Shown here one piece after another: positions 28,113-39,929 of a stretch of 64,000 nucleotides of DNA. The stretch lies in NCBI RefSeq assembly GCF_015687155.1, contig NZ_JADPQF010000004.1, positions 186,001-250,000 of the forward strand. Reading direction: 5' to 3'. Positions within the stretch are counted from its first letter, which is position 1, and every line of letters starts with the position of its first letter. The position numbers and the translations under genes were made by a program. The notes under the pieces are model-generated. The model had not been told where the DNA came from, made no database searches, and saw only the letters and a list, made by a program, of their open reading frames with translations. Source of the DNA: Aliikangiella sp. G2MR2-5. Its GTDB lineage: Bacteria > Pseudomonadota > Gammaproteobacteria > Enterobacterales > Kangiellaceae.

Positions 28113-29606
28113 TTAATAAGAATCAGCCTTGCAGAAGCTATCTATAAACTCCTGGTGTGTTGGTAGATTTTCAAGTTCCATCTCAATCTTTTCCCTCATT
28201 TGGGCAAATACCTTTTCAAGTTGTGACTCTGGCATTAAGTCTACGATTGGATGATAACCGTTTGGCGTGATGCCCTGTCCCAACATTATCTGTTGCCAAG
28301 ATCGCTTACTGAACATATCTCCTTCCTTTTGTTCAATTCTTGACGTACGAGTAAATGTTTCGATCTTCTGTTTTAATGATTCTGGTATATCCATTTCCCT
28401 GCAATAAATCCAAAAGTCACTATCATCACGCTGGTTAAGATAGTAGTGCAATATTATAACATCTCGAACTCTCTGATATTCATTGTTAGTCTGACTGTTA
28501 TATTCGGTGCGCTCTTTGTGAAAGTTTTCTTTGCTCGGGAAAAGTTTCACAAATCTTTTGATACCTGTGTGAATAAGATGAAGGCTTGTTGATTCAAGGG
28601 GCTCCAAAAAGCCACTTGCCAACCCAATCGCCAGACAGTTATTCTTCCATGGCTCAACACGCATCCCTGTTTTAAATCTGATGACTCTAGGCTCAGTTAA
28701 TAAATCACCATCAATATTATCAACCAAAGTTTTTCTCGCTTCGTCATCATCCATAAACTTGCTGCTATAAACTATTCCATTTCCGACTCTATGCTGTAAT
28801 GGAATACACCACTGCCAACCGACTTTATGTGCAGTTGACCGCGTATATGGGATCGGTTGCTTAGTTGATGAGCTTTGAACGGCGATTGCACTATCCGCTG
28901 GAAGCCAATGACTCCAGTCTTCGTATTCGGACCCTAGAGTCTCTCCTATCAACAAGGATCTGAATCCAGTGCAATCAATAAAGAAATCGCCCGAAACTTC
29001 TTTTCCTGATTCCAAATTTAATTGCTTGATAAATCCTCGTTCATCTTTTTTTACATTAGTTATCTTACCTTCAACTCTCTCCACACCCCATTTTTCACTA
29101 AGCTCTCGCAAATATTTTGCGTATAAGCTTGCGTCAAAATGATATGCATAAGAGGTTTCATCACAAAACTTATTATCTTTTGACGCTAAGTAATTCAGAG
29201 AGAAATCCCAGAAGTCACTACTATCATATTTTTGTTTGTACTTTAGCCAGTAGTCAATAAAACTGGCATCAGAAAACTCACTACTTGCCGCAATACTATT
29301 TCCGACTCGACCAAAAGCGTGCATATAGCTATCGCCGACTTTACCCCAGTTATCAAACTGAATTCCGAGTTTGAAGGTACCTTTAGTGAACTTAAGAAAA
29401 TCAGCTTCATCAATACCCAGCATTCTATTAAAATTTTTAATTGCTGGAATCGTTGCTTCGCCAACACCGACAGTTCCAATCGCGTCAGATTCAACAAGAA
29501 TGATTTTAATTGCAGGACTAAATAGCTTCGATAGCATTGCAGCAGTCATCCATCCTGCACTACCTCCGCCGGCAATAACTAAAGACTTAATTTTGTTTGT
29601 ACTCAT
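28113..29606 (-). CDS. Flavin-dependent tryptophan halogenase
   Basis: A 497-aa member of the tryptophan halogenase family, starting at MSTNKIKSL. FAD motif GGGSAG at 13-18; GEATIP at 50-54; catalytic Lys79 in TFKLGIQFDNW (the same number as Lys79 in PrnA); WxWxIP at 264-269 (GWQWCIPL); catalytic Glu338 in FLEPLESTS (equivalent to Glu346 of PrnA). It should make hypohalous acid from FADH2 and O2 and guide it to an indole. A flavin reductase is not encoded nearby. It is divergent from the Trp-rich peptide gene (30010), so peptide tryptophans are the likely substrate; related peptidyl halogenases are known (MibH, SrpI). Free tryptophan cannot be excluded. Confidence 0.9.
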   Translation of the reverse strand: MSTNKIKSLVIAGGGSAGWMTAAMLSKLFSPAIKIILVESDAIGTVGVGEATIPAIKNFNRMLGIDEADFLKFTKGTFKLGIQFDNWGKVGDSYMHAFGRVGNSIAASSEFSDASFIDYWLKYKQKYDSSDFWDFSLNYLASKDNKFCDETSYAYHFDASLYAKYLRELSEKWGVERVEGKITNVKKDERGFIKQLNLESGKEVSGDFFIDCTGFRSLLIGETLGSEYEDWSHWLPADSAIAVQSSSTKQPIPYTRSTAHKVGWQWCIPLQHRVGNGIVYSSKFMDDDEARKTLVDNIDGDLLTEPRVIRFKTGMRVEPWKNNCLAIGLASGFLEPLESTSLHLIHTGIKRFVKLFPSKENFHKERTEYNSQTNNEYQRVRDVIILHYYLNQRDDSDFWIYCREMDIPESLKQKIETFTRTSRIEQKEGDMFSKRSWQQIMLGQGITPNGYHPIVDLMPESQLEKVFAQMREKIEMELENLPTHQEFIDSFCKADSY

Positions 29607-29767
29607 AATTCCATTGAACATTTGTTATTAATTTTGTCTGATTCTACACTTGCGACAAATTACATATCAATAAGTTTATCTCTCGTTTTGATTTGTTTGA
29701 TAACCAAAGCTATGCCGAAATACTTTAGCAAATTTTCAAATGAATTTTACTAGTAAATATTCACTAG

Positions 29768-29813
29768 AATCTCTTTGTTGAATATTTTTTCAATCTCTTT
29801 ATTGAATTTTTAT
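29768..29813. repeat. Imperfect 22-bp direct repeat in the AT-rich promoter region
   Basis: Two near-identical units that begin AATCTCTTTGTTGAAT (29768) and AATCTCTTTATTGAAT (29792) occur 24 bp apart, in the very AT-rich gap between the halogenase gene and the peptide gene. They could bind a regulator serving both. The rest of the 400-bp gap holds only very short frames. Confidence 0.45.
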
Positions 29814-29928
29814 TTAAATTATCATCGAATAAAAATTATTTTAATCTCCATTGTAGATATATTTTTTATTTAACGCTGGTAGGTATTTTTAATATCTCGA
29901 TAACAAATAATTGGGCAATTGTTGGCTG

Positions 29929-29980
29929 TTGATTAAATTATTTTTTTTGGTTTACACTACTCCTCCCTTGATTTAAGGGA
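29929..29980 (+). promoter_or_regulatory. Candidate promoter and 5' hairpin of the peptide gene
   Basis: TTGATT (29929-29934), 18 bp, then TACACT (29953-29958) is a fair sigma-70 match. A small stem follows at 29964-29980 (TCCCTT, five bases, AAGGGA). AAGGA at 29997-30001 lies eight bases before the peptide ATG. Confidence 0.4.
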
Positions 29981-30009
29981 TAACTAAATTAATAACAAGG
30001 AATATGTAA

Positions 30010-30162
30010 ATGAAAACTGAAACAGAAAATAAAGTAAATAAAGAGTTAGATCTAAACGACGTTGAGTTGATCACAAATGTTGAGACAAAAGCAGGCGTTT
30101 GGGAAACTCCTCCTGGTGAAGTTGACAAAAATGAGTGGTGGACTATCACTCGTAACTTCTAA
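30010..30162 (+). CDS. Putative RiPP precursor peptide, Trp-rich core
   Basis: A 50-aa peptide with a charged, Cys-free leader (MKTETENKVNKELDLNDVEL) of the Nif11/double-glycine style, L-D-L-x-D-V-E-L-I, then ETKAG at 25-29. The likely core begins at residue 30 with VWETPPGEV and ends EWWTITRNF. Three of its 21 residues are Trp (31, 43, 44), with four Thr and no Ser or Cys. An AG dipeptide before the core fits, less well than GG, a C39 peptidase site. The neighbours (Trp halogenase, C39 exporter, oxygenases, kinase) supply matching chemistry: Trp for halogenation, Thr for phosphorylation, and Asn, Pro or Arg for hydroxylation. No homologue is recalled. Confidence 0.75.
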   Translation: MKTETENKVNKELDLNDVELITNVETKAGVWETPPGEVDKNEWWTITRNF

Positions 30163-30683
30163 GAGGTAATTATAGATACGTTAGTTACTGTATCAATATT
30201 TACTTTTAAGGTCGGGAACTTTTATGGTTTTCGACCTGTAAGTTATGTTTTTGATAGATACAATTTTTGCTTTACTCCATTGTGCATTTAAAAATATATC
30301 AACGGAAGTTCTAATTTAGCGCGAGAATCACTTCAGAATCTTTAGAAGCTCACATCGTCGAGTTTGCTTGTAGTATTTTTTAAAAATCAAAACAGGTTTC
30401 GATGCGGAACTGGTGTGCGTAAGCGTGGATAGGCATTTTTATAAGGATATATTGTTTACCGGTTTAGTAAAAAATCTGGTTGCTAAGAAGTCCATGCGTA
30501 TTAGTAAATCATTCCAATATCATCTACGTAAAACATGAGTCGAAAGTTTTCGAATCAACACTGTGACTTCGTAAAGTAATAGCCAGTTTGATTGGATGTA
30601 TCATTGGAACGCTAGAGCGTGTGTTAAAAAAAATTGAAGTGCCTTAAAAGGGCATCTAGTAATATGATGAAATAGAATCAGGT
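30163..30683. other. Non-coding gap between the peptide gene and the export operon
   Basis: 520 bp with only frames below 25 codons. It holds the hairpin at 30209-30237 and, near its end, TGCCTTAAAAGGGCA (about 30642-30656). It may include a second promoter or RNA processing site. I see no second precursor gene. Confidence 0.5.
30209..30237 (+). terminator. Hairpin directly after the peptide gene
   Basis: AGGTCGGGAAC (30209-30219) pairs with GTTTTCGACCT (30227-30237) over 11 positions (two G-U) around TTTTATG. It is 47 bp after the peptide stop, with no T-run. A read-through terminator or RNase barrier here would let the peptide mRNA exceed the enzyme mRNA, as is usual in RiPP operons. Confidence 0.55.
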
Positions 30684-31907
30684 ATGAGTCTTAATGAAAA
30701 TCTAATCTTAAAAATTATTGTTCGAGTGACGATATTTATATCGTTGGCGCTATATATACTCTTGAGCTTTGTTCATGTGGATGACTATTCCAAGCCAATC
30801 AATGGCTTTGTTTCTACTAATCCATACCCATACAAAATAAAATCACAGGTATCGGCTGAAATTAAAGAACTTCCAGTCAAAGAGGGAAACAATGTTTTAG
30901 CTGATCAAATCTTGCTTCAACTTGATGACAACGCTTTGAAAATCGAACTTGATTCACTAAAAAAGAAAAAGGAATACTTAAATCAAAAAATAATCGGGTA
31001 CCTAGAGAAAAAAGAAATCTTAGCGGAAAGACTGATACTAAATAAAGAGTATGAAAAAAACCTGATAAAGAGATTAAGCTCCAAGAAATCTTTTGTCGAA
31101 AACAAGAAGGAACTCTCAGAAGTAAGTAAGTCATATGTTGGCTCGATTAAAGATGATGCGAAAAAGCTAATCCAGCAACTCGATAAAAATAATAAGCAGC
31201 TATTGTCAAAAGTAAAAGAGTTAGATATTCGAACTCAAGCACACAATGTTATTGAGAGAGGACTTTCCTATGAAAAAGAGAGAGCTTCAATACAATATGA
31301 AAACGAACTGGCTTCACTGGAATTTGCAGACAGCCAATACCAACTGGGAATAGAGAATCGTAATATTGACTATGAAATAAACCAGGTAAGCCAGGAGCTA
31401 CTTGATTTAAATAGTACCCTGGATGACGTTAAATCTAAAATTGAACAACTGAAAATAAAATTGACTCATACGACGGTACTAGCTCCTATTAGTGGAGTTA
31501 TAACTTCTGTAGAGCCTAGTGTACTAACCAGCAATACGATAACAGCTAATGAAACTTTAGTCACCCTGGTTCCCGAAGGCGCAAAACTAATTGGCGTGCT
31601 TGCACTGTCGGATGAGGACTATCGACAAATAAAAGTCGGGCAAAAAGTCAATCTGGAATTTTTTGCATGGAATCACTATAAGTACGGCATTCTAAAAGGA
31701 ACTGTAGAAAAGGTATCAGTCGGAAAGATTTCACATCCTGTCTCCGGGCGCTTAGGTCATTTTGCTGAAGTGAATCTCGATAATCGGTTAGATGTAGAAA
31801 TCGGGTATTCTTTCAGGGCAAGAGTTTTGTGGGAAAAAGTTCCTTTGTATAAATATATTCTTAAAAAAATGAATATTGATAACGAGAGTGAAAGCAGACG
31901 TGGTTAG
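30684..31907 (+). CDS. HlyD-family membrane fusion protein
   Basis: A 407-aa periplasmic adaptor. N-terminal anchor about 9-30 (KIIVRVTIFISLALYILLSF), lipoyl half-motif (VSAEIKELPVKEGNNVLADQ), a long coiled coil at about 90-265, second lipoyl half (LAPISGVITSVEP) and a beta-barrel domain. This is the layout of type I secretion adaptors for C39-peptidase exporters (CvaA, LcnD type). It joins the inner-membrane exporter to an outer-membrane channel, probably TolC, which is not in the window. It overlaps the exporter gene by 32 bp. Confidence 0.9.
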   Translation: MSLNENLILKIIVRVTIFISLALYILLSFVHVDDYSKPINGFVSTNPYPYKIKSQVSAEIKELPVKEGNNVLADQILLQLDDNALKIELDSLKKKKEYLNQKIIGYLEKKEILAERLILNKEYEKNLIKRLSSKKSFVENKKELSEVSKSYVGSIKDDAKKLIQQLDKNNKQLLSKVKELDIRTQAHNVIERGLSYEKERASIQYENELASLEFADSQYQLGIENRNIDYEINQVSQELLDLNSTLDDVKSKIEQLKIKLTHTTVLAPISGVITSVEPSVLTSNTITANETLVTLVPEGAKLIGVLALSDEDYRQIKVGQKVNLEFFAWNHYKYGILKGTVEKVSVGKISHPVSGRLGHFAEVNLDNRLDVEIGYSFRARVLWEKVPLYKYILKKMNIDNESESRRG

Positions 31908-34344
31908 TGACTTTTTTACACAAGAAAAGTACAACAGATATATTGACAGACAGTTGAGTACTAATGATTGCGCGATAAGCGTAATCAAGACCATTTTTAA
32001 TCTATTTAACATCAATGTTAAACGTCATGATATTCAACAGGAAATAACGCTAGACGAAGAAGGGGCAGATTTTGATTCAGTAAAGAGCTATCTGGCGTCC
32101 TTTGATGTATCAGGTAAATACAATATTCTCGATATCAATAAACAAGACCATAGTGATCTACTTCCTTGCATTGCGATGATAGAGAAGAGAAACAGGAATC
32201 ACTACGTCATCATAGAGAAGCAGAAAAAAAACAAGTTTCTTATATTAGATCCTGTTAGAGGTTCGTCCAAATGGATTAACAAAGAAGAGTTTTTTGGTGA
32301 CGTTAGTAGAATCAAGAGTTCTGTAAATGAAGAACTATCACTTGAATTAATGAAAAGTACAGTTCAAAAATATAGCGAAGAGCTTAAACTTGACTTCAAA
32401 TTAAGCGATTCAAAAAAGGACATAATAGATAGCTACAATAAAATACAATACTTAAAATGGTTGGAAGATACGGTTGGCTTTGAGTCCAAAGAGAAAAAAG
32501 CTGTTTTCCTGAAGAAAATACTTAGTGCAAATAATGGCTGTCTTCCTCCTAGATTTAAACATTTTGAGTTAGCAAAAGAAGATGTATTGCTTAAAGCGCC
32601 TATAGTCTTCTCCTATAAAAATAGTATTAAAGTAAATGATAAAATAGTTATGGAGCGTAACAGGGATATTCCCAGTTTTATCGCCCATATAACAAGATCT
32701 TCTTCAGAAGTATATCGTTCGTTAAAGCAGTTCACATTAGTAAGCATCTTTACAATCATGATTGCTACATTACTGCTGTTTGCGAACCAGGCTATTATAG
32801 ATGAAGTTAGCCCTGCTCAAAACATGTCAACCGTAATGGTTTTTCTTGTTGTTCTATTCTTTGTCAGGTTTTTCGAACTTCTCTTAAATGTTATTAGTAG
32901 TTTGTCCGAAATTGTTTTATCGAGGCGTTTAGATAGCTGGCTAGTAAAGCAGTATAACAACTCACTGTTGTATTATGACGTAGAGTCAATCTCCGCCTAT
33001 TCTAGAGGAGAGTTAGTTCAACGACTTAATGACTTGTTTAGAATAAAGAACGTAATCTTTATGTACTGCAATAACTATATTTTTAATATAGTTGTGTGTT
33101 TGCTCATTTCTTTAACCGTACTGTTTATTCATGCAAAAGTCTTTTATATAGTTTCATTGATTTGTGCTATTTACGCTGTTGCATTATATCTGACTGCGCC
33201 AAAGGTCAAAGAGCTAGAATCTAAAAAGTTTTCACAAAAAAGCTCGTTAATAACTGAGACTATGAATGTTATTGAAGGGCACGATATTATCAAGAAGAAC
33301 AAGCTTCAACCCGTATTTTCAGAGAGTAACGAATTTACTTTAAATAATTTTCTCGATTTACAAGCTAAGAGTCTTCTAATTTCAAAGTTATTCGTTCATA
33401 TTCCAAGGTTTATAGGTGTTTGTGGATATATAGCTGTTATTTGGATCTCTATGAATGAACATATTGAAGAGCAGCAACTATCTTTAGGCCAGGTATTTAC
33501 CTTGATGGTACTTAGTAACTATTTGATAAGCTCTCTGAGAGTTGTTTTGAATACGAAACTCCAACTGCAGGAGCAAACGGTTGTGATAGACCGTTTTCTG
33601 GATTTTATTTCAGGAGCTAACGGTTCGGATAATGTTCCTACATCAAATGTCGAGACTAATAATCTTGCCAGGATAGACTTTAATGACTTTAGTTATAAAG
33701 TATCTGACTCTAAGTTCAAGCTTTCGATTAAAAGACTATCGATTCAGGCCGGAGACAGAATTCTTCTCGATGGTTTGAATGGTAGTGGCAAGTCCACTTT
33801 CTTAAAAATATTGTCCGGTTCAATTACTCGAAACATAAATGGTGGTATTAGGTTTTTCTCAACAGACAATTCGCCTTTGAATGAACAGATCAGTAAAGAC
33901 CGAATTATGTTGTTTCGTGCAGAAGACAAAATATTTAACGAGTCAATTCAATTTAATATTAACTTCACTAATTCTGCGAATAACTCAGCGATATATCAGC
34001 TTATTAAAGAATTGGGAATGGACGACTTTATCTCGCCTCATAATAGAAGTTTAAACTCATGGTTAGAAGATAATGAAGATAGCCTTTCAACAGGGCAGAA
34101 AAGAAAAATTCTGGTTCTTCGGGCGCTTATGTCGGACGCTGATGTGCTGATATTCGATGAAATATTTAGAGGAATAGATCGGGGTTCTGTCCAAAAAATT
34201 GTCAACTACTTGAATAACATATCTAAACAAAAAATCGTTATCTACACGACACATGAAACTATTGAAAACCTAAAATTCAATAGAAACCTGCATATTAGTG
34301 ACGGAGAATTGGTTGAGAATGATGACGACACAGCAGCAATATAA
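31876..34344 (+). CDS. Peptidase-containing ABC exporter (C39 leader peptidase)
   Basis: An 822-aa protein. N-terminal C39 protease with the full triad: Cys32 (STNDCAIS), His109 (NRNHYVII) and Asp125 (ILDPVRG). A long linker (130-270), six membrane helices (about 290-560), then the nucleotide-binding domain with Walker A GLNGSGKSTFL, signature LSTGQKRK (for LSGGQ) and Walker B VLIFDE. Such PCAT proteins cut leaders after a small-residue pair and export the core. The peptide at 30010 is the obvious client. The TTG start is uncertain; GTG codons at 31888 and 31900 are alternatives. The end overlaps the kinase gene. Confidence 0.92.
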   Translation: MITRVKADVVSDFFTQEKYNRYIDRQLSTNDCAISVIKTIFNLFNINVKRHDIQQEITLDEEGADFDSVKSYLASFDVSGKYNILDINKQDHSDLLPCIAMIEKRNRNHYVIIEKQKKNKFLILDPVRGSSKWINKEEFFGDVSRIKSSVNEELSLELMKSTVQKYSEELKLDFKLSDSKKDIIDSYNKIQYLKWLEDTVGFESKEKKAVFLKKILSANNGCLPPRFKHFELAKEDVLLKAPIVFSYKNSIKVNDKIVMERNRDIPSFIAHITRSSSEVYRSLKQFTLVSIFTIMIATLLLFANQAIIDEVSPAQNMSTVMVFLVVLFFVRFFELLLNVISSLSEIVLSRRLDSWLVKQYNNSLLYYDVESISAYSRGELVQRLNDLFRIKNVIFMYCNNYIFNIVVCLLISLTVLFIHAKVFYIVSLICAIYAVALYLTAPKVKELESKKFSQKSSLITETMNVIEGHDIIKKNKLQPVFSESNEFTLNNFLDLQAKSLLISKLFVHIPRFIGVCGYIAVIWISMNEHIEEQQLSLGQVFTLMVLSNYLISSLRVVLNTKLQLQEQTVVIDRFLDFISGANGSDNVPTSNVETNNLARIDFNDFSYKVSDSKFKLSIKRLSIQAGDRILLDGLNGSGKSTFLKILSGSITRNINGGIRFFSTDNSPLNEQISKDRIMLFRAEDKIFNESIQFNINFTNSANNSAIYQLIKELGMDDFISPHNRSLNSWLEDNEDSLSTGQKRKILVLRALMSDADVLIFDEIFRGIDRGSVQKIVNYLNNISKQKIVIYTTHETIENLKFNRNLHISDGELVENDDDTAAI

Positions 34345-35488
34345 GTTGATAGAAAACACGTCTTTTACAAAGCAATCTGACGGTAAAGTTCATGTTCGAT
34401 GTCAACGGGAAAATCACGTTGTAAATTTTATGGTTAATGAAAATATTATGGAGTTTATGCAAGCATTTAGCGCTTATCAAACTGTTGCTCAAGTAGCGAG
34501 CAAACTTGAAGGCAAGGGTTTTAATTCAGAACAAGTCGTCAGTTTTTCTGAAAAAGTTTTTAGTAGTCCCCTGTCGCATTGCTTTAAACAAGGTTTGCAT
34601 TACACTCATCCAAAGAAGATATTGACACGTTTTGGCTTCAAGCTTAAGGATGTTTTTAGAAATAGTAGACTTGTTGCCGTTGTTAGTGCAGTAGATAGCA
34701 ACAATGAGGAAGTGGTTTTGAGGGTCGTAAAAGCCCCACGTGACGACAAGAATTTTGCTCGACAAGAGTCCAGACTAAATTTTGAATATCAGCTACTTTC
34801 TGAATTGCGAGAAATAGAAAATGTCATTGATGCCTATAAATTAGAAGATGATAGCTATGTTGCACTCGCTTACAAATATATAAACGGCACATCCTTGAAA
34901 GACTTTGTCAATAGAAGACATACCATTAAACAAAGAGTTGAGCTAGCGCTAGAGATAGTACGCACCTTTCGCGCTATTCACGAAAAGGGCTTTCTACATG
35001 GCGATATTCATCCGTCTAACATACTGATTGATGACTCAGGTAAACCAACTGTTATTGATTTTGACTGTGCTTACAAAATAGGCGGGCCAGTCGCTGATAG
35101 AATTGGCGGCGTACCTCATTTCTTTCCACCTGAAAATACTAATGAATCGTGGTTCGATCAAAGTAAATCGATTCCTATTAGCTATTATGGAGAGCTATAT
35201 CAAATAGGTCTAGTCGTTTACTACTGTCTAACAGGAAAATTACTTTTTGACAAGCCCGGCTATTCTGAGCTAATGGAAGCAATAAGTAATAATAGCTTTG
35301 AAGTGTTTAACCAAACTCCCGAAGGGGAATATATTGAGGAAAATATTCTCGAATTTATAAAGCAATGTGTTAGCAAGTCACCCGAAAAACGAGAACTAGC
35401 ATGTAACAAGCTGGACGAAGCACTCGCAGAAATGCTGGGAGTGAATTACAAGAATTATTTAAATGAGTGTCGGGTTGAACTTACATAA
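34319..35488 (+). CDS. Protein kinase-like enzyme with PqqD/RRE-like N-terminal region
   Basis: A 389-aa protein. Kinase-fold core about 100-385: Lys138 (RVVKAP), catalytic loop HGDIHPSN with Asp229 and Asn234, metal loop DFD at 247-249, and a PPE end to the activation segment. The invariant residues are all present, so it should transfer phosphate. Residues 8-85 (YKLIENTSF, then VNFMVNENIMEFMQAF and VAQVASKLEGKGFNSEQVV) have the strand-strand-three-helix pattern of PqqD-type leader-recognition domains; this is inference from pattern. It overlaps the exporter gene by 26 bp. There is no LanC cyclase domain, so it is not a class III/IV lanthipeptide synthetase. Confidence 0.78.
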   Translation: MMTTQQQYKLIENTSFTKQSDGKVHVRCQRENHVVNFMVNENIMEFMQAFSAYQTVAQVASKLEGKGFNSEQVVSFSEKVFSSPLSHCFKQGLHYTHPKKILTRFGFKLKDVFRNSRLVAVVSAVDSNNEEVVLRVVKAPRDDKNFARQESRLNFEYQLLSELREIENVIDAYKLEDDSYVALAYKYINGTSLKDFVNRRHTIKQRVELALEIVRTFRAIHEKGFLHGDIHPSNILIDDSGKPTVIDFDCAYKIGGPVADRIGGVPHFFPPENTNESWFDQSKSIPISYYGELYQIGLVVYYCLTGKLLFDKPGYSELMEAISNNSFEVFNQTPEGEYIEENILEFIKQCVSKSPEKRELACNKLDEALAEMLGVNYKNYLNECRVELT

Positions 35489-35517
35489 CCTTGTTGGAAA
35501 GCAAGAGGAACAGCATA

Positions 35518-36720
35518 ATGAATACTAGTGTTTTAGATATTTGCGCCAATGAGCAGTTCAAGGTTAACAGTTACGACAGCATTAGTGCGTCCGATACCAC
35601 ACCTTTTACTTATCTATTAGAGATGATCAGGAACGGAACATTTTTTAGTTGCTATTGGCAAAAAAGGAGTGTTCATATACGTAATGACTTTGAACTAACT
35701 CAAGCAGAGCATACACTTGATAGTTTGTTGAATATCGTTAGAAATAATAATATCTATTCCAGGGACTGTCGTATAGTTTATACCGGCAATGTATTACCTT
35801 TTGAGCAATTCGAGAAAGATGGTATCGCTTGTGTCGAAACAATTGAAAAACTTATTGAAAAAAATGCGACGCTCGTTTTCCGATACTTTGACAGATTTGA
35901 TGGTCGAGTAAAGAATCGTATTCAAAGCCTGAAAAACGGTTTGGAAAAACGCGTTCTTGCAACAACGCGCTCCAACTGCTACTACACGCCTCCAAATTCG
36001 AAAGGATTTGCTCCACATTGGGATTGTCACGATATTGTTGTCTATCAAGCATCTGGTAGCAAAAACTGGTCGCTCTGGAATAGCCCAGTCAAACTTCCGA
36101 ATAAATATCAGAACTTCAGTCACTATCCATATGAGCCGAAAGATGAAATTAAGCTCACTTTAAATGCAGGTGATATCCTGTTTTTGCCAAGAGGATGTAT
36201 TCATTCAGCAAGTACCAGTGATTCGTTATCGGTTCACTATTCATTTGGAATTAGAACTGTCGATTATAGTGATGTGGCAATGAAGTGGCTAAAGGAAGCT
36301 ATTTTTGACGATGAGCTATTCAGAGCCAGTCTAGAGTTCAGTGGTGAGAAAACTCTAGATCAGGTTAAGCAACAACTGGTTAATAAACTACTAGAGCACC
36401 CCATACTTCCTTCTATTTGCAATGCGAGCTCGGAACTACTCGGCAATAAAGAAATTCCTGCTCGAAGCAGCTTTGAACTCAAAATGGACTCTGTCCTTGT
36501 TAGAACAAACGTTGTTGCACATCTAGTAAAAGAGCAGAAAAGCCACTCTCTATTGACGCGCTATGATTCCATAACTATTCCAGAGTCGCTACTGGATATT
36601 GTTCAAAAGATAGTCAATGTTGATTCTATTTCACCGAGTGAAGTTGAGCTACCTACAAATGCCGCCTTAAAGCTATTTGAGAAGTTAGTAGAAGTAGGCT
36701 TGTTTGTTATTTCGGAGTAG
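35518..36720 (+). CDS. JmjC/cupin-like 2-oxoglutarate oxygenase (first copy)
   Basis: A 400-aa protein of the ribosomal-oxygenase (RoxA/YcfD-type) JmjC group. Iron ligands His167 and Asp169 (FAPHWDCHDIVVYQ) and His229 (LPRGCIHSA). The C-terminal winged-helix part ends in KLFEKLVEVGLFVI. RoxA-type enzymes hydroxylate Arg or His side chains in proteins, so peptide hydroxylation is likely here. ATG 35518 follows GAGGAA. The gene is in tandem between the kinase and phosphatase genes. Iron and 2-oxoglutarate use is inferred from the motif; ligand for 2-oxoglutarate is not identified. Confidence 0.85.
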   Translation: MNTSVLDICANEQFKVNSYDSISASDTTPFTYLLEMIRNGTFFSCYWQKRSVHIRNDFELTQAEHTLDSLLNIVRNNNIYSRDCRIVYTGNVLPFEQFEKDGIACVETIEKLIEKNATLVFRYFDRFDGRVKNRIQSLKNGLEKRVLATTRSNCYYTPPNSKGFAPHWDCHDIVVYQASGSKNWSLWNSPVKLPNKYQNFSHYPYEPKDEIKLTLNAGDILFLPRGCIHSASTSDSLSVHYSFGIRTVDYSDVAMKWLKEAIFDDELFRASLEFSGEKTLDQVKQQLVNKLLEHPILPSICNASSELLGNKEIPARSSFELKMDSVLVRTNVVAHLVKEQKSHSLLTRYDSITIPESLLDIVQKIVNVDSISPSEVELPTNAALKLFEKLVEVGLFVISE

Positions 36721-36727
36721 TGACGCT

Positions 36728-37996
36728 ATGGGTAAAAAAGGCAGACGTATAATAATTGTGGCTCTGGCTTTGCTGGTGTTAATGATAATATCTTTTTTAT
36801 ATTTGATGAATAGAGCTTACTTCGTCACCGATAGAAATGGTCTCTTTCAATACTATGTTATTCCGATAAGTGGTCCCTACTCTGCACGTTTCAGGTTATA
36901 TGAAAGTGCGAATAAGGAAAAAAATATAGCATTACAGAAGAAGTACTATGGCCCCATTTTTCGATTTAACGAGAAAAATGAAAGAATCGCAAAATGGATT
37001 TGTAATAACAGAGTCTTTAGTGAAAACACTCTAGGAGCGTCCAGTTATCAAATACAGTGTAATGATAAAAGTTATCGCTACAATTTGAATAACAAGCCAA
37101 TCAATATTCCGGATAGCATTGAAGATAGAGAAGTTTACGCTTTTAGTGATCTACATGGAAATATTGAATATTTCAAAAAAGTACTAATAAATCTCGGTAT
37201 TGTTGATGAGAATTACAATTGGAACTTTGCCAACAATGGAGTTGTGTTAACAGGTGATTTGATAGATAAATCAAGCGATGACAGAGCTTTAATGTGGTTT
37301 ATCTACAATCTAGAGCAACAAGCCGCTAAACATGGAGGATTTGTACTTGTTTTACTAGGGAATCATGAAGTTTTTCAACTACAGGGAGATTTTAGACATG
37401 CGCATCCGGTTAGCGTTTATCTAACACAGAAAATGTTTCCTCTGACTCAAGCACTTGACAAAAATACCATTTTAGGAGAATGGCTCCGATCGAAGCCTAT
37501 TATAGCGAAGCTCAATGGATATTTGTTTACACATGCAGGCTTGAGCCCGAAAATTATCGATATTAATGATCTGTTTTCATTGAATAAGGTACTGTTGGAA
37601 TATTGGCAAGGTAAGGCGCCAGATGATATAAGTTATCAGGCAATTTTTGGGCCTCAAGGTGTTATAAACTATCGTGGAATGGTAAAGGAAACTCCTTTCT
37701 ATCCTATGCTCTCACAACAGCAACTCAATAAACTTGCTTCTAAACATGATTTTAAAAAAATAATTTTTGGACACACTGAAGTTGATAATATCAGCTTTCT
37801 ATTTAACGATAGTGCAATAGCTATCGATGCCAGTCGTCACTCAACTGAAGTTCTAAGGCTAAAAAATAATGAGCTATCGCTTGTGGATGTGGCTTATCTA
37901 AACAAAAGCGAATCCTGGAAAAAGTCATCAGTAAGAATTCCATTTAACTTGTTCTCGAGTAGTGACTGGAAGCTCATTGCTACAGGAATAAATTAA
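36728..37996 (+). CDS. Membrane-anchored PPP-like metallophosphatase (Shelphs type)
   Basis: A 422-aa protein with a basic start (MGKKGRR) and one membrane helix (about 8-28), so the catalytic domain should face the periplasm. PPP-family motifs: SDLHGN (140-145), GDLIDK (176-181), GNHE (211-214) and a late GHTEVD. These are the metal ligands of Ser/Thr phosphatases, in the Shewanella-like (Shelphs) style. The ATG has GGAG ten bases upstream and sits just after the first oxygenase. Its placement beside a kinase suggests it removes phosphate from the exported peptide or from a partner. Confidence 0.87.
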   Translation: MGKKGRRIIIVALALLVLMIISFLYLMNRAYFVTDRNGLFQYYVIPISGPYSARFRLYESANKEKNIALQKKYYGPIFRFNEKNERIAKWICNNRVFSENTLGASSYQIQCNDKSYRYNLNNKPINIPDSIEDREVYAFSDLHGNIEYFKKVLINLGIVDENYNWNFANNGVVLTGDLIDKSSDDRALMWFIYNLEQQAAKHGGFVLVLLGNHEVFQLQGDFRHAHPVSVYLTQKMFPLTQALDKNTILGEWLRSKPIIAKLNGYLFTHAGLSPKIIDINDLFSLNKVLLEYWQGKAPDDISYQAIFGPQGVINYRGMVKETPFYPMLSQQQLNKLASKHDFKKIIFGHTEVDNISFLFNDSAIAIDASRHSTEVLRLKNNELSLVDVAYLNKSESWKKSSVRIPFNLFSSSDWKLIATGIN

Positions 37997-38009
37997 GTGA
38001 GGTAATGCG

Positions 38010-39248
38010 GTGCTAACGTTTTATAAAGATGAATTTTCTGCTGGTTGCAAATTAAAGCCTAATGATTTGAACGGCTTTTTTAATGGTGTAGGTTGCGAGC
38101 GATTCACTGACGAACATTTAGGATGCCGGCCATTGTTACTCACCAGAACTAATTCTGACTTCTACAATGATATTTTAAGCTTGAATGATATAAATAATAT
38201 TTTCAGTTCAAAAAGACTTATTGAAAACGACATCAGAGTTTTTAAGGCTGGGAAAAAAATAGCTTACTCTGAAATTTCATACGAAGATAGAAGCGCTGAT
38301 AAGAGTAAGATATTTGAACTTTTTAAATCCGGCGCAACGCTTGTTTTTGAAAATATAGGTAGATACCATTTACCGTTGGGACAATTTATAGCACATCTGG
38401 AAAATGAGTTTCATGTAAGAATGCGAGCAAATGCTTTTCTAACGCCTGCAGGAAGTCAAGGGTTTAAGCCTCATTTCGATAGTCATGATGTATTTGTACT
38501 ACAAATTTACGGACATAAAGAGTGGCTCATCGGTAATAATCCAATTGAACTTCCTGATGACATGACTTCAGAGACTCGATATCAAGCTGCAATTGAAAAT
38601 AGTGAAATACTAGCTACTGAGGTCTTAAAAAAAGGAGATTTATTATACTTGCCCAGAGGATTCGTACATTCTGCAAAAGCTTGCGAGTCTACCTCTCTGC
38701 ATATAACTATCAGCATGCGAGGCCATACCGGAGTAGACCTGTTAAAAAAATCACTAAGTCAGATATTTGAAAATTCTGTGGAGATGAGGAAATATATTAA
38801 TCACAAAAAGGTGTTTGATAACCAAAGCTATATTGAGCTCTTAACAAACGAGATTAAAAAAGTTCAATATGACAAATTATCAACTGAGCTTTATCAGGAT
38901 TACTTATTGCAAACCTTCCCAGTAGCTTATCAGCAGGTAGAGCGAATATTTTCACCACAGGAGCTGCTTCATGATTCATTGTTGGAAGTCAATCCCTATA
39001 TGGTTTGGCAGGCTTTTTATCAAGGTGACTTTATTCGTTTAATATTCGACGGAAAGGAAATGAGATTACCAAAAGCAGCACAAAATGCTCTGCAATATAT
39101 CTCCGAACAATCAAATTTTCGCCCGAGCGAACTGCCAGATTTCGATGAAAAAAATGCTTTAATGCTATGTGAAGTTCTATATTCAAATGGCTATTTGAAA
39201 TTTGCAGAGAGAAATAAATTGCGAGAAACCTGCCGAGATAGTCTTTAG
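38010..39248 (+). CDS. JmjC/cupin-like 2-oxoglutarate oxygenase (second copy)
   Basis: A 412-aa paralogue of the oxygenase at 35518. Iron ligands His155 and Asp157 (FKPHFDSHDVFVLQIYG) and His220 (LPRGFVHSA); C-terminal winged-helix region ends EVLYSNGYLKF. The two copies share the NxYxTP-G-GFxPHxDxHD core but differ clearly elsewhere, so they probably modify different residues. GTG start with GAGG seven bases upstream. Confidence 0.85.
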   Translation: MLTFYKDEFSAGCKLKPNDLNGFFNGVGCERFTDEHLGCRPLLLTRTNSDFYNDILSLNDINNIFSSKRLIENDIRVFKAGKKIAYSEISYEDRSADKSKIFELFKSGATLVFENIGRYHLPLGQFIAHLENEFHVRMRANAFLTPAGSQGFKPHFDSHDVFVLQIYGHKEWLIGNNPIELPDDMTSETRYQAAIENSEILATEVLKKGDLLYLPRGFVHSAKACESTSLHITISMRGHTGVDLLKKSLSQIFENSVEMRKYINHKKVFDNQSYIELLTNEIKKVQYDKLSTELYQDYLLQTFPVAYQQVERIFSPQELLHDSLLEVNPYMVWQAFYQGDFIRLIFDGKEMRLPKAAQNALQYISEQSNFRPSELPDFDEKNALMLCEVLYSNGYLKFAERNKLRETCRDSL

Positions 39249-39290
39249 TTACTGAGAACCAAAACAACAAATTAGAGAGTGATGATCGAT

Positions 39291-39929
39291 ATGATGAATA
39301 AAACGCTTTGCGGATCTGAAAAGGCGGATAAAAAATACGCTTTGGATGACCATAAACTAAGGAGTGTTTTTGATTTTATAACTGCTAATAAAGTCATATT
39401 AAGCGATCTGATTTCAATTAAGCATATTTCTCTTCTAGCAAGCAGTTCACTTTTATCTCCGGGTGATGTAAGTATATCCAGTGATGGTAGAGTGCTACCA
39501 ATGACGTCCTTTTCTGCCAAAGGTAAAGTCAATAGAAATGTAATGCTCGAGCATCTGTCTTCAGGCAAAAAAGTAAAAGTATCCTGCATAGAGAATTATT
39601 TGATAGATTTCAAAATATTTTTTGCCACTCTTGAAAGAAAAATGGGTTGTAATCTTAAGTCAGAACTTTGTTTTTCTTCTTCAGAAATGAATCTTAAAGA
39701 TTACAGTAAAATGCCAATTGACATGATATCTATACAGCTCTATGGAGGCAGGCGGGTCTATGTCGATGAGCTGAATGACACCAGAACATTGAAAAAGAAT
39801 GACATTATCTATCTTTGTGAGAAAACACATATTGAAGAACAGATATCTGGAAAATCGATTTATCTAAACCTGTATCTTAATTATGACGAAGAATGTATTT
39901 CGCCATACAAATTTTATGATTTCGAGTAA
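39291..39929 (+). CDS. Degenerate JmjC/cupin-like protein lacking the HxD iron ligands
   Basis: A 212-aa protein aligning with residues about 90-240 of the preceding oxygenase: EHLSSGKKVKV matches LFKSGATLVF, IDMISIQLYGGRRVYV matches HDVFVLQIYGHKEWLI, and LKKNDIIYLCEKTHIE matches LKKGDLLYLPRGFVHS. The HFDSHD iron-ligand segment is replaced by a sequence without HxD; the distal His is kept. It is therefore a probable pseudoenzyme or peptide-binding partner. The frame is intact. Start choice (39282 or 39291) is uncertain. Confidence 0.72.
   Translation: MMNKTLCGSEKADKKYALDDHKLRSVFDFITANKVILSDLISIKHISLLASSSLLSPGDVSISSDGRVLPMTSFSAKGKVNRNVMLEHLSSGKKVKVSCIENYLIDFKIFFATLERKMGCNLKSELCFSSSEMNLKDYSKMPIDMISIQLYGGRRVYVDELNDTRTLKKNDIIYLCEKTHIEEQISGKSIYLNLYLNYDEECISPYKFYDFE

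Follow-up and report, generated by a model that had tools for sequence, protein, structure and literature searches.

A candidate RiPP-type gene cluster with a conserved kinase and JmjC oxygenase in Aliikangiella sp. G2MR2-5

Our question was whether a compact group of genes in Aliikangiella sp. G2MR2-5 directs the modification and export of a ribosomal peptide of an undescribed kind. The window analysed is a stretch of 64,000 nucleotides, corresponding to bases 186001-250000 of contig NZ_JADPQF010000004.1, in a genome of 5.0 Mb. The genes in question lie between window positions 28113 and 39929. An earlier note, made from the DNA letters alone, had proposed a cluster for a ribosomally synthesised and post-translationally modified peptide (RiPP) here, with a single peptide being halogenated, hydroxylated and phosphorylated. 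An open reading frame (ORF) check, with Pfam, located all nine genes at the expected coordinates and in the proposed order. Briefly, a halogenase gene on the reverse strand is followed by a divergent 50-codon ORF. Beyond these lie genes for an HlyD-family periplasmic adaptor and a C39-ABC exporter, then a kinase gene and a metallophosphatase gene, each succeeded by a JmjC gene, and last a gene for a degenerate JmjC-fold protein. Tight packing is also evident since, from 30684 to 39929, all genes occupy one strand and either overlap or are separated by 30 bases or fewer. The sequence comparisons below make it likely that these genes mature and export the peptide encoded by the 50-codon ORF, in the manner of RiPPs, and that the family is undescribed. 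Note that this assessment covers only that core claim, and not the individual steps.

The 50-codon ORF (30010-30162, forward strand) is preceded by an AAGGA-like ribosome site, recognised by eye. Its product has a leader of approximately residues 1-29, ending TKAG, and a predicted 21-residue core, VWETPPGEVDKNEWWTITRNF, with an unmodified monoisotopic mass of 2603.24. Cleavage presumably occurs after the leader. Peptide ORFs also precede hlyD at two other loci. In Parachitinimonas caeni (locus L063, 4737-4877) the encoded peptide is MQKVENKELDLRNLEIVTEVTEKAAGNDTEESFEIWTITAGSSIHN and, in genome G745, which belongs to the same class and is distantly related (L144:9972-10136), it is MKKLDQEKKVAELSIENMDIITEVDDTAGAALANDDQNEWFEFWTLTSAHNVNN. 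The start was chosen inside a longer frame in both cases. Alignment of the three peptides identifies a common leader, EL[DS][LI]...[DE][LI][IV]T[NE]V..[KT]A, and a common core motif, WT[IL]T. None contains cysteine. Near the C terminus, both relatives have His-Asn where the window peptide has Arg-Asn. When ORFs of 30-90 amino acids were compared (437 in the window, 193 at L063 and 298 in 36 kb of G745), the peptide of each region outscored all others as a match for its two counterparts, with scores of 73-96 against 38 or less for runners-up. Across 20,000 shuffles, not one of the three pairwise scores was attained. Note that, because the G745 peptide was sought in front of hlyD, its position is not independent evidence, whereas the sequence match is.

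Because the peptide is conserved at all three loci, beyond what shuffling would produce, the 50-codon ORF is very likely the real precursor gene of a rare RiPP family, as far as sequence can tell. The earlier note had named homologous loci without a conserved peptide frame as the finding that would undo it; the peptide is present at both of the homologous loci found. The RiPP arrangement it proposed, with a gene-encoded precursor, conserved leader and core, and adjoining genes for modifying enzymes, recurs at each of the three. The window peptide matches no Pfam family at E<=1 and no NCBIfam family, so it lacks the Nif11 or nitrile-hydratase-like leader of Srp-type halogenated proteusins.

The genes around the peptide are shared to different degrees. 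HlyD (30684-31907, forward strand; Pfam HlyD_3), the C39 exporter (31876-34344, forward strand; Pfam ABC_membrane, ABC_tran and Peptidase_C39), the kinase and one JmjC protein are common to all three loci. At L063 and G745 these follow the peptide in window order, with the JmjC protein being MINA/NO66-like. At G745 they are joined by a phosphatase gene, which is thus found at two of the three loci. Only the window was seen to have a halogenase gene and to have more than one JmjC gene (a second and a third). Where the earlier note suggested looking for co-occurrence of these families around short Trp-rich peptides, the kinase and one JmjC bear it out fully and the phosphatase in part, whereas the halogenase and additional JmjC genes are not supported as features of the family. 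The exporters at L063 and G745 are 38% and 33% identical to the window copy, and the HlyD proteins are 28% and 25% identical. In all three exporters, alignment places an invariant Cys32, His109 and Asp125, together with Gln26, in the C39 domain. This C39 domain, with its Cys/His/Asp triad, is fused to an ABC exporter, as expected for a C39-exported peptide. Since the peptide, with its leader and WT[IL]T motif, the gene order and the C39 triad are all conserved in the three loci, we favour an undescribed RiPP-type cluster.

What might be done to the peptide? The enzymes encoded suggest, as the best reading, an exported peptide that is phosphorylated and hydroxylated, with halogenation being possible. 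Among RiPP models, the kinase domain matches those of the lanthipeptide proteins LanL and LanKC. The solved-structure neighbours of the JmjC proteins are the hydroxylases MINA53 and NO66, and relatives of the phosphatase are, by PDB name, protein phosphatases.

Several observations weigh against this reading, and the first three concern the Ser/Thr-type protein kinase (34298-35488, forward strand; Pfam Pkinase, E 1.1e-31), which has an N-terminal domain besides. First, the window protein has Arg142 (V-L-R) where both orthologues have the beta3 lysine (V-I-K). Such a change usually weakens canonical kinases, and the window enzyme could be weak or dead. It retains Glu163 of alphaC, Asp236 of the HxD motif, Asn241, and Asp254 of the DFG motif. 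The earlier view, that catalytic residues are intact in all but the last gene, must therefore be amended; it holds for the C39 exporter, the first two JmjC proteins, the phosphatase and the halogenase, but not for the kinase. Second, the best NCBIfam model is not a RiPP kinase but the defence kinase MAD6 (E 1.9e-20), followed by LanL (E 2.5e-18) and LanKC (E 1.9e-14), and all of these matches fall far below the curated cut-offs. Third, the AlphaFold2 model (mean pLDDT 69.5) has a bbb-aaa topology at residues 11-100 (pLDDT approximately 75-86). This resembles a RiPP recognition element (RRE), and the N-terminal domain is possibly one, judging from the model; the likeness is one of topology only, and searches gave no RRE match. 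Fourth, where a GG ending is usual, the leader of each of the three peptides ends AG (or AAG). Fifth, a phosphatase was not found beside the P. caeni cluster, and the G745 phosphatase (L144:16312-17589) has SDLEGN in place of SDLHGN, so that glutamate replaces the first metal-site histidine. Finally, with a total of three known loci, conserved sites provide only a slender basis for argument.

The off-consensus beta3 position of the window kinase would suit a peptide exported without modification, as a signal or bacteriocin, with the kinase, JmjC and phosphatase acting on other targets or only regulating export. We think this improbable; the exporter apart, no enzymes but the kinase and JmjC accompany the peptide at every one of the three loci, and the JmjC proteins have solved relatives that hydroxylate side chains of proteins. 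The match to LanL and LanKC kinase domains also raises the matter of lanthipeptide-like chemistry, with elimination of phosphothreonine to dehydrobutyrine. This is highly improbable. Neither Pfam nor NCBIfam detected a lyase or cyclase family among the nine window proteins and, since the three peptides are devoid of cysteine, no lanthionine ring is possible. Lanthipeptide identity was rejected on these grounds. An HprK-like kinase with a separate RRE protein, as in paeninodin-type and linear polyphosphorylated peptides, was not found among the window proteins by Pfam or NCBIfam, Pkinase being present instead.

Returning to the phosphorylated and hydroxylated peptide, hydroxylation would fall to the JmjC proteins. 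The first, jmj1 (35491-36720, forward strand; Pfam JmjC_2, E 3.7e-24), is an extra, fast evolving copy, which keeps the HWD motif and the distal histidine on alignment. The second, jmj2 (38010-39248, forward strand; Pfam JmjC_2, E 1.2e-28), has H155, D157, H220 and K170. The HxD...H signature and the lysine, which we take to be the 2-oxoglutarate-binding residue, mark jmj1 and jmj2 as JmjC 2-oxoglutarate oxygenases; jmj3 does not have them. It is jmj2 that corresponds to the single JmjC protein of each relative, being 32% identical to both. Searched against solved structures, the JmjC profile matched MINA53 best (E 1.1e-37) and NO66 next, both named in the PDB as ribosomal histidine hydroxylases. 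The match to the ribosomal protein L16 arginine hydroxylase was far lower (E approximately 6e-8). A tree built from 48 JmjC proteins, from which loci L100-L142 were excluded, places jmj1, jmj2 and the proteins of both relatives in one group, with support (87/92) under the starred threshold and with long jmj1 and jmj2 branches. This fits an origin of jmj1 within this type of cluster. The last gene, jmj3 (39279-39929, forward strand), has no Pfam match over the cut-off. Its AlphaFold2 model (mean pLDDT 70), for which the input alignment included JmjC relatives, matches NO66 in Foldseek (E 4.8e-10), and alignment indicates that the HxD iron ligands are missing. The description of the last gene as a degenerate JmjC was therefore apt. 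No counterpart of jmj3 was seen at the L063 or G745 locus. Note that two of the three JmjC genes, jmj1 and jmj3, are known only from the window, which weakens the claim made for them earlier.

The metallophosphatase (36704-37996, forward strand; Pfam Metallophos) is closest, among solved chains, to 2z72 and 1v73 (E approximately 1e-57), named protein-tyrosine-phosphatase and psychrophilic phosphatase I, and presumably from Shewanella. In the window protein, a hydrophobic segment begins at residue 16, with KKGRR just before it. Both copies have a positive stretch and a hydrophobic segment at the N terminus, and two cysteines are kept between this anchor and the catalytic domain. Because of these features, the phosphatase is probably a periplasmic enzyme. 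Since it accompanies the kinase at two of the three loci, and is predicted to be periplasmic, phosphate might be transient. It would be lost before or on export, leaving a final product that carries hydroxyl, and perhaps halogen, but no phosphate. Against this, no phosphatase adjoins the P. caeni cluster, and an ABC exporter with a TolC-linked HlyD would bypass the periplasm, as type I secretion does. We give this variant of the favoured reading somewhat less than an even chance.

The halogenase (28113-29621, reverse strand) is of the flavin-dependent, tryptophan type (Pfam Trp_halogenase PF04820, E 1.5e-174), and its membership of the pathway is uncertain. The RiPP family could be real and the halogenase stand outside it, as a leftover or independent enzyme of the TonB-receptor-linked kind, common in this bacterial family, that merely adjoins the peptide gene. 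No halogenase match occurs in the 21-kb P. caeni or 36-kb G745 stretches. Across the P. caeni genome, PF04820 gives only two partial matches, in one 418-residue frame (E 4e-12 and 8e-10); these pass the cut-off, and the model also matches in 5 of 14 control genomes, including E. coli. The G745 genome has six strong PF04820 matches, none being inside the 36 kb around the cluster. In 40 related genomes, the best homologues are approximately 45-57% identical. At all 11 of the loci read, with homologues of 46-52% identity, a TonB-dependent receptor is either adjacent to the halogenase or part of its gene set (ten called by Pfam, and that of L186 by eye). SapC also occurs in some of these sets and, in G005, such a set lies directly after gcvP.

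Other evidence would suit a link between the halogenase and the peptide. One query for a TonB receptor found no match in the 64-kb window. The enzyme is full length, with WQWCIP, GTFK and GGGSAG motifs, and its divergent gene is 388 bases from that of the Trp-rich peptide. In a tree, the window halogenase occupies its own branch, of length 0.69, apart from the TonB-linked homologues, as expected of a re-purposed enzyme. Among solved chains, the nearest are 9luq, 6y1w (Xcc4156) and 6frl (BrvH), with E 8e-164 to 1e-132; MibH (5uao) is distant (E 3e-55). From these matches, BrvH and the Xanthomonas enzymes presumably represent its clade. A 2020 paper describes native substrates as unknown both for BrvH and for three halogenases of Xanthomonas (PMC7336383). 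The absence of copies at the relatives' loci, and the usual placement of homologues beside TonB receptors, weaken the case for a role in the pathway. We conclude that, from comparison of the three loci, halogenation is outside the core chemistry of the family. An unrelated halogenase, compatible with the core claim, is an explanation that we put only just short of even, and halogenation of the peptide in this organism is about an even bet. Separately, one set in G037 (L182:9211-17281) combines a TonB receptor, two halogenases, SapC and a JmjC-related Cupin_8 protein; halogenase and JmjC-type genes also co-occur outside RiPP clusters.

These elements can be assembled into a scheme for the phosphorylated and hydroxylated peptide, in which we infer each chemical step, the modification sites, the cleavage position and the role of the phosphatase. 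The leader of the precursor would bring in the enzymes of maturation. The cytoplasmic kinase would phosphorylate, most likely, one of the two threonines in the WT[IL]T motif. The MINA/NO66-like jmj2, perhaps joined by jmj1, would hydroxylate a residue of the core, perhaps close to the C terminus (RN in the window, HN in both relatives), although three sequences allow no more than a guess at the site. The halogenase may, in this organism alone, halogenate a core tryptophan. The C39 domain would cut after the leader Ala-Gly, with the ABC and HlyD proteins exporting a peptide of approximately 21 residues. At or after export, the membrane-anchored, periplasm-facing phosphatase would strip the phosphate, which might act as a safety catch or switch. 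A bolder version has a new RiPP class defined by the WT[IL]T core, with the Hanks-type kinase and MINA/NO66-like JmjC as class-defining enzymes, the phosphate catch being added inside and removed by the anchored phosphatase as the peptide leaves, and a re-purposed TonB-clade halogenase acting here on the conserved tryptophan. Taken whole, this is doubtful.

How widespread is the cluster? P. caeni L063 was discovered by a genome scan with a three-sequence JmjC alignment. The scan of contigs returned at least 592 stretches with at least 554 relatives, of which 80 loci were kept. Among the 90 loci compared (L053-L142), only L063 had HlyD, C39 exporter and kinase together; of ten JmjC stretches, L053-L055 were read gene by gene and the rest entered comparisons only. 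G745 was discovered with a profile of two exporters, as the one match among 368 other genomes of the class (2 of 369 with the host itself). The same profile found only the host among 394 genomes of the order and 398 of the phylum, only G745 in sets of 21 and 109 genomes around it, and only P. caeni in its set of 10. These sets overlap. Misses are possible because few candidates were scored per genome: two for the class, order and phylum, and nine for the 109-genome set. As a single query, the exporter recovered only generic ABC transporters (24% identity or less) in 40 other genomes, with its C39 part unmatched among the best matches listed. None of 3976 matching plasmid records covered 80% of the exporter query, and none of the four that matched the phosphatase covered 80% of the phosphatase query. 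Searches of viral contigs gave no match.

With a JmjC query, 324 of the 394 genomes of the order match, mostly as a background of ribosomal oxygenases. Four better matches (L024-L026 and L028) were read, and turned out to be different clusters. In one (L024:1243-3376, G071), a JmjC gene, with a product 28% identical to jmj2, immediately precedes that of a presumably sucrase/ferredoxin-like protein bearing a CTHGKHDKCCAKFG motif. Other JmjC loci have a RiPP-like appearance. L053:7315-16086 (G016, same family) encodes two short GG-leader peptides, a radical-SAM protein, two JmjC-like proteins, HlyD and a C39 exporter. At L055:7531-11631 (G046), a 60-residue peptide ending FGSWREWD precedes a radical-SAM/SPASM protein, a short JmjC protein and two more genes, possibly a RiPP cluster. 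At L096:7125-11392 (Aphanothece sp.), an MvdD-like ATP-grasp gene and a GG-leader peptide adjoin two tandem JmjC genes, a possible graspetide locus with JmjC tailoring. Together with radical-SAM enzymes (at L053 and L055) or an ATP-grasp enzyme (at L096), such JmjC genes lie near short peptides, which points to MINA/NO66-like JmjC enzymes as recurrent in RiPP tailoring.

The window segment 27681-41900, downstream of gcvP, is a variable region within the genus. Genes after gcvP differ in each of four other genus genomes compared (G001, G003, G005 and G006; G002 and G004 were omitted, having gcvP near a contig end). Window genes farther downstream, for a metallo-beta-lactamase-fold protein and PspA, also occur in G003. 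The GC fraction is 0.34-0.39 for hlyD through jmj3, 0.39 for the halogenase and 0.404 for the whole window. In the 521 bases between the peptide ORF and hlyD, no terminator-like site was found, and promoter-like sites were no more numerous than in shuffles. Low GC, scattered distribution and the variable region after gcvP together suggest that the cluster was acquired horizontally.

Overall, the window cluster makes a good candidate for a RiPP family, as yet undescribed, whose core is a kinase and a JmjC protein. In the portions of the open-licence literature returned by keyword searches, we found no description of a cluster in which RiPP and JmjC go with a kinase and C39 or halogenase, and no account of one small exported peptide that is hydroxylated, phosphorylated and halogenated. 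Some other antibiotics use phosphate for self-protection. A kinase and phosphatase on opposite sides of the membrane would, if true, be the ribosomal-peptide parallel. Microcin V-type export, which uses a C39 ABC exporter with an HlyD adaptor and a short leader, shares these components with the window, where the leader ends AG rather than GG and dedicated kinase and JmjC genes are present. Class III and IV lanthipeptide synthetases have a related kinase domain, whereas the window has neither lyase, cyclase nor peptide cysteine. The halogenases MibH, SrpI and ChlH are reported to perform flavin-dependent halogenation of peptide tryptophan (PMC12615548, PMC10858898, PMC12518702), but the window enzyme is far from MibH and nearest to 9luq, 6y1w and 6frl. 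Linear polyphosphorylated peptides and paeninodin-type lasso peptides are, like the predicted window product, kinase-modified and exported ribosomal peptides; they involve HprK-like kinases, a separate RRE protein and an NTP transferase (PMC13381572), in contrast to the Hanks-type kinase, JmjC proteins and C39 exporter here. Biphenomycin (bip/bpm) clusters have MNIO and B12-radical-SAM enzymes, neither family being detected among the nine window proteins by Pfam, whereas the kinase, C39 exporter and phosphatase of the window go unmentioned in the available portions of the biphenomycin accounts (PMC12707348, PMC12257519). What biphenomycin shares with the window, where it is predicted, is a JmjC 2-oxoglutarate oxygenase acting on a side chain of a ribosomal precursor; BipG is a JmjC enzyme shown by experiment to be a RiPP hydroxylase (PMC12707348).

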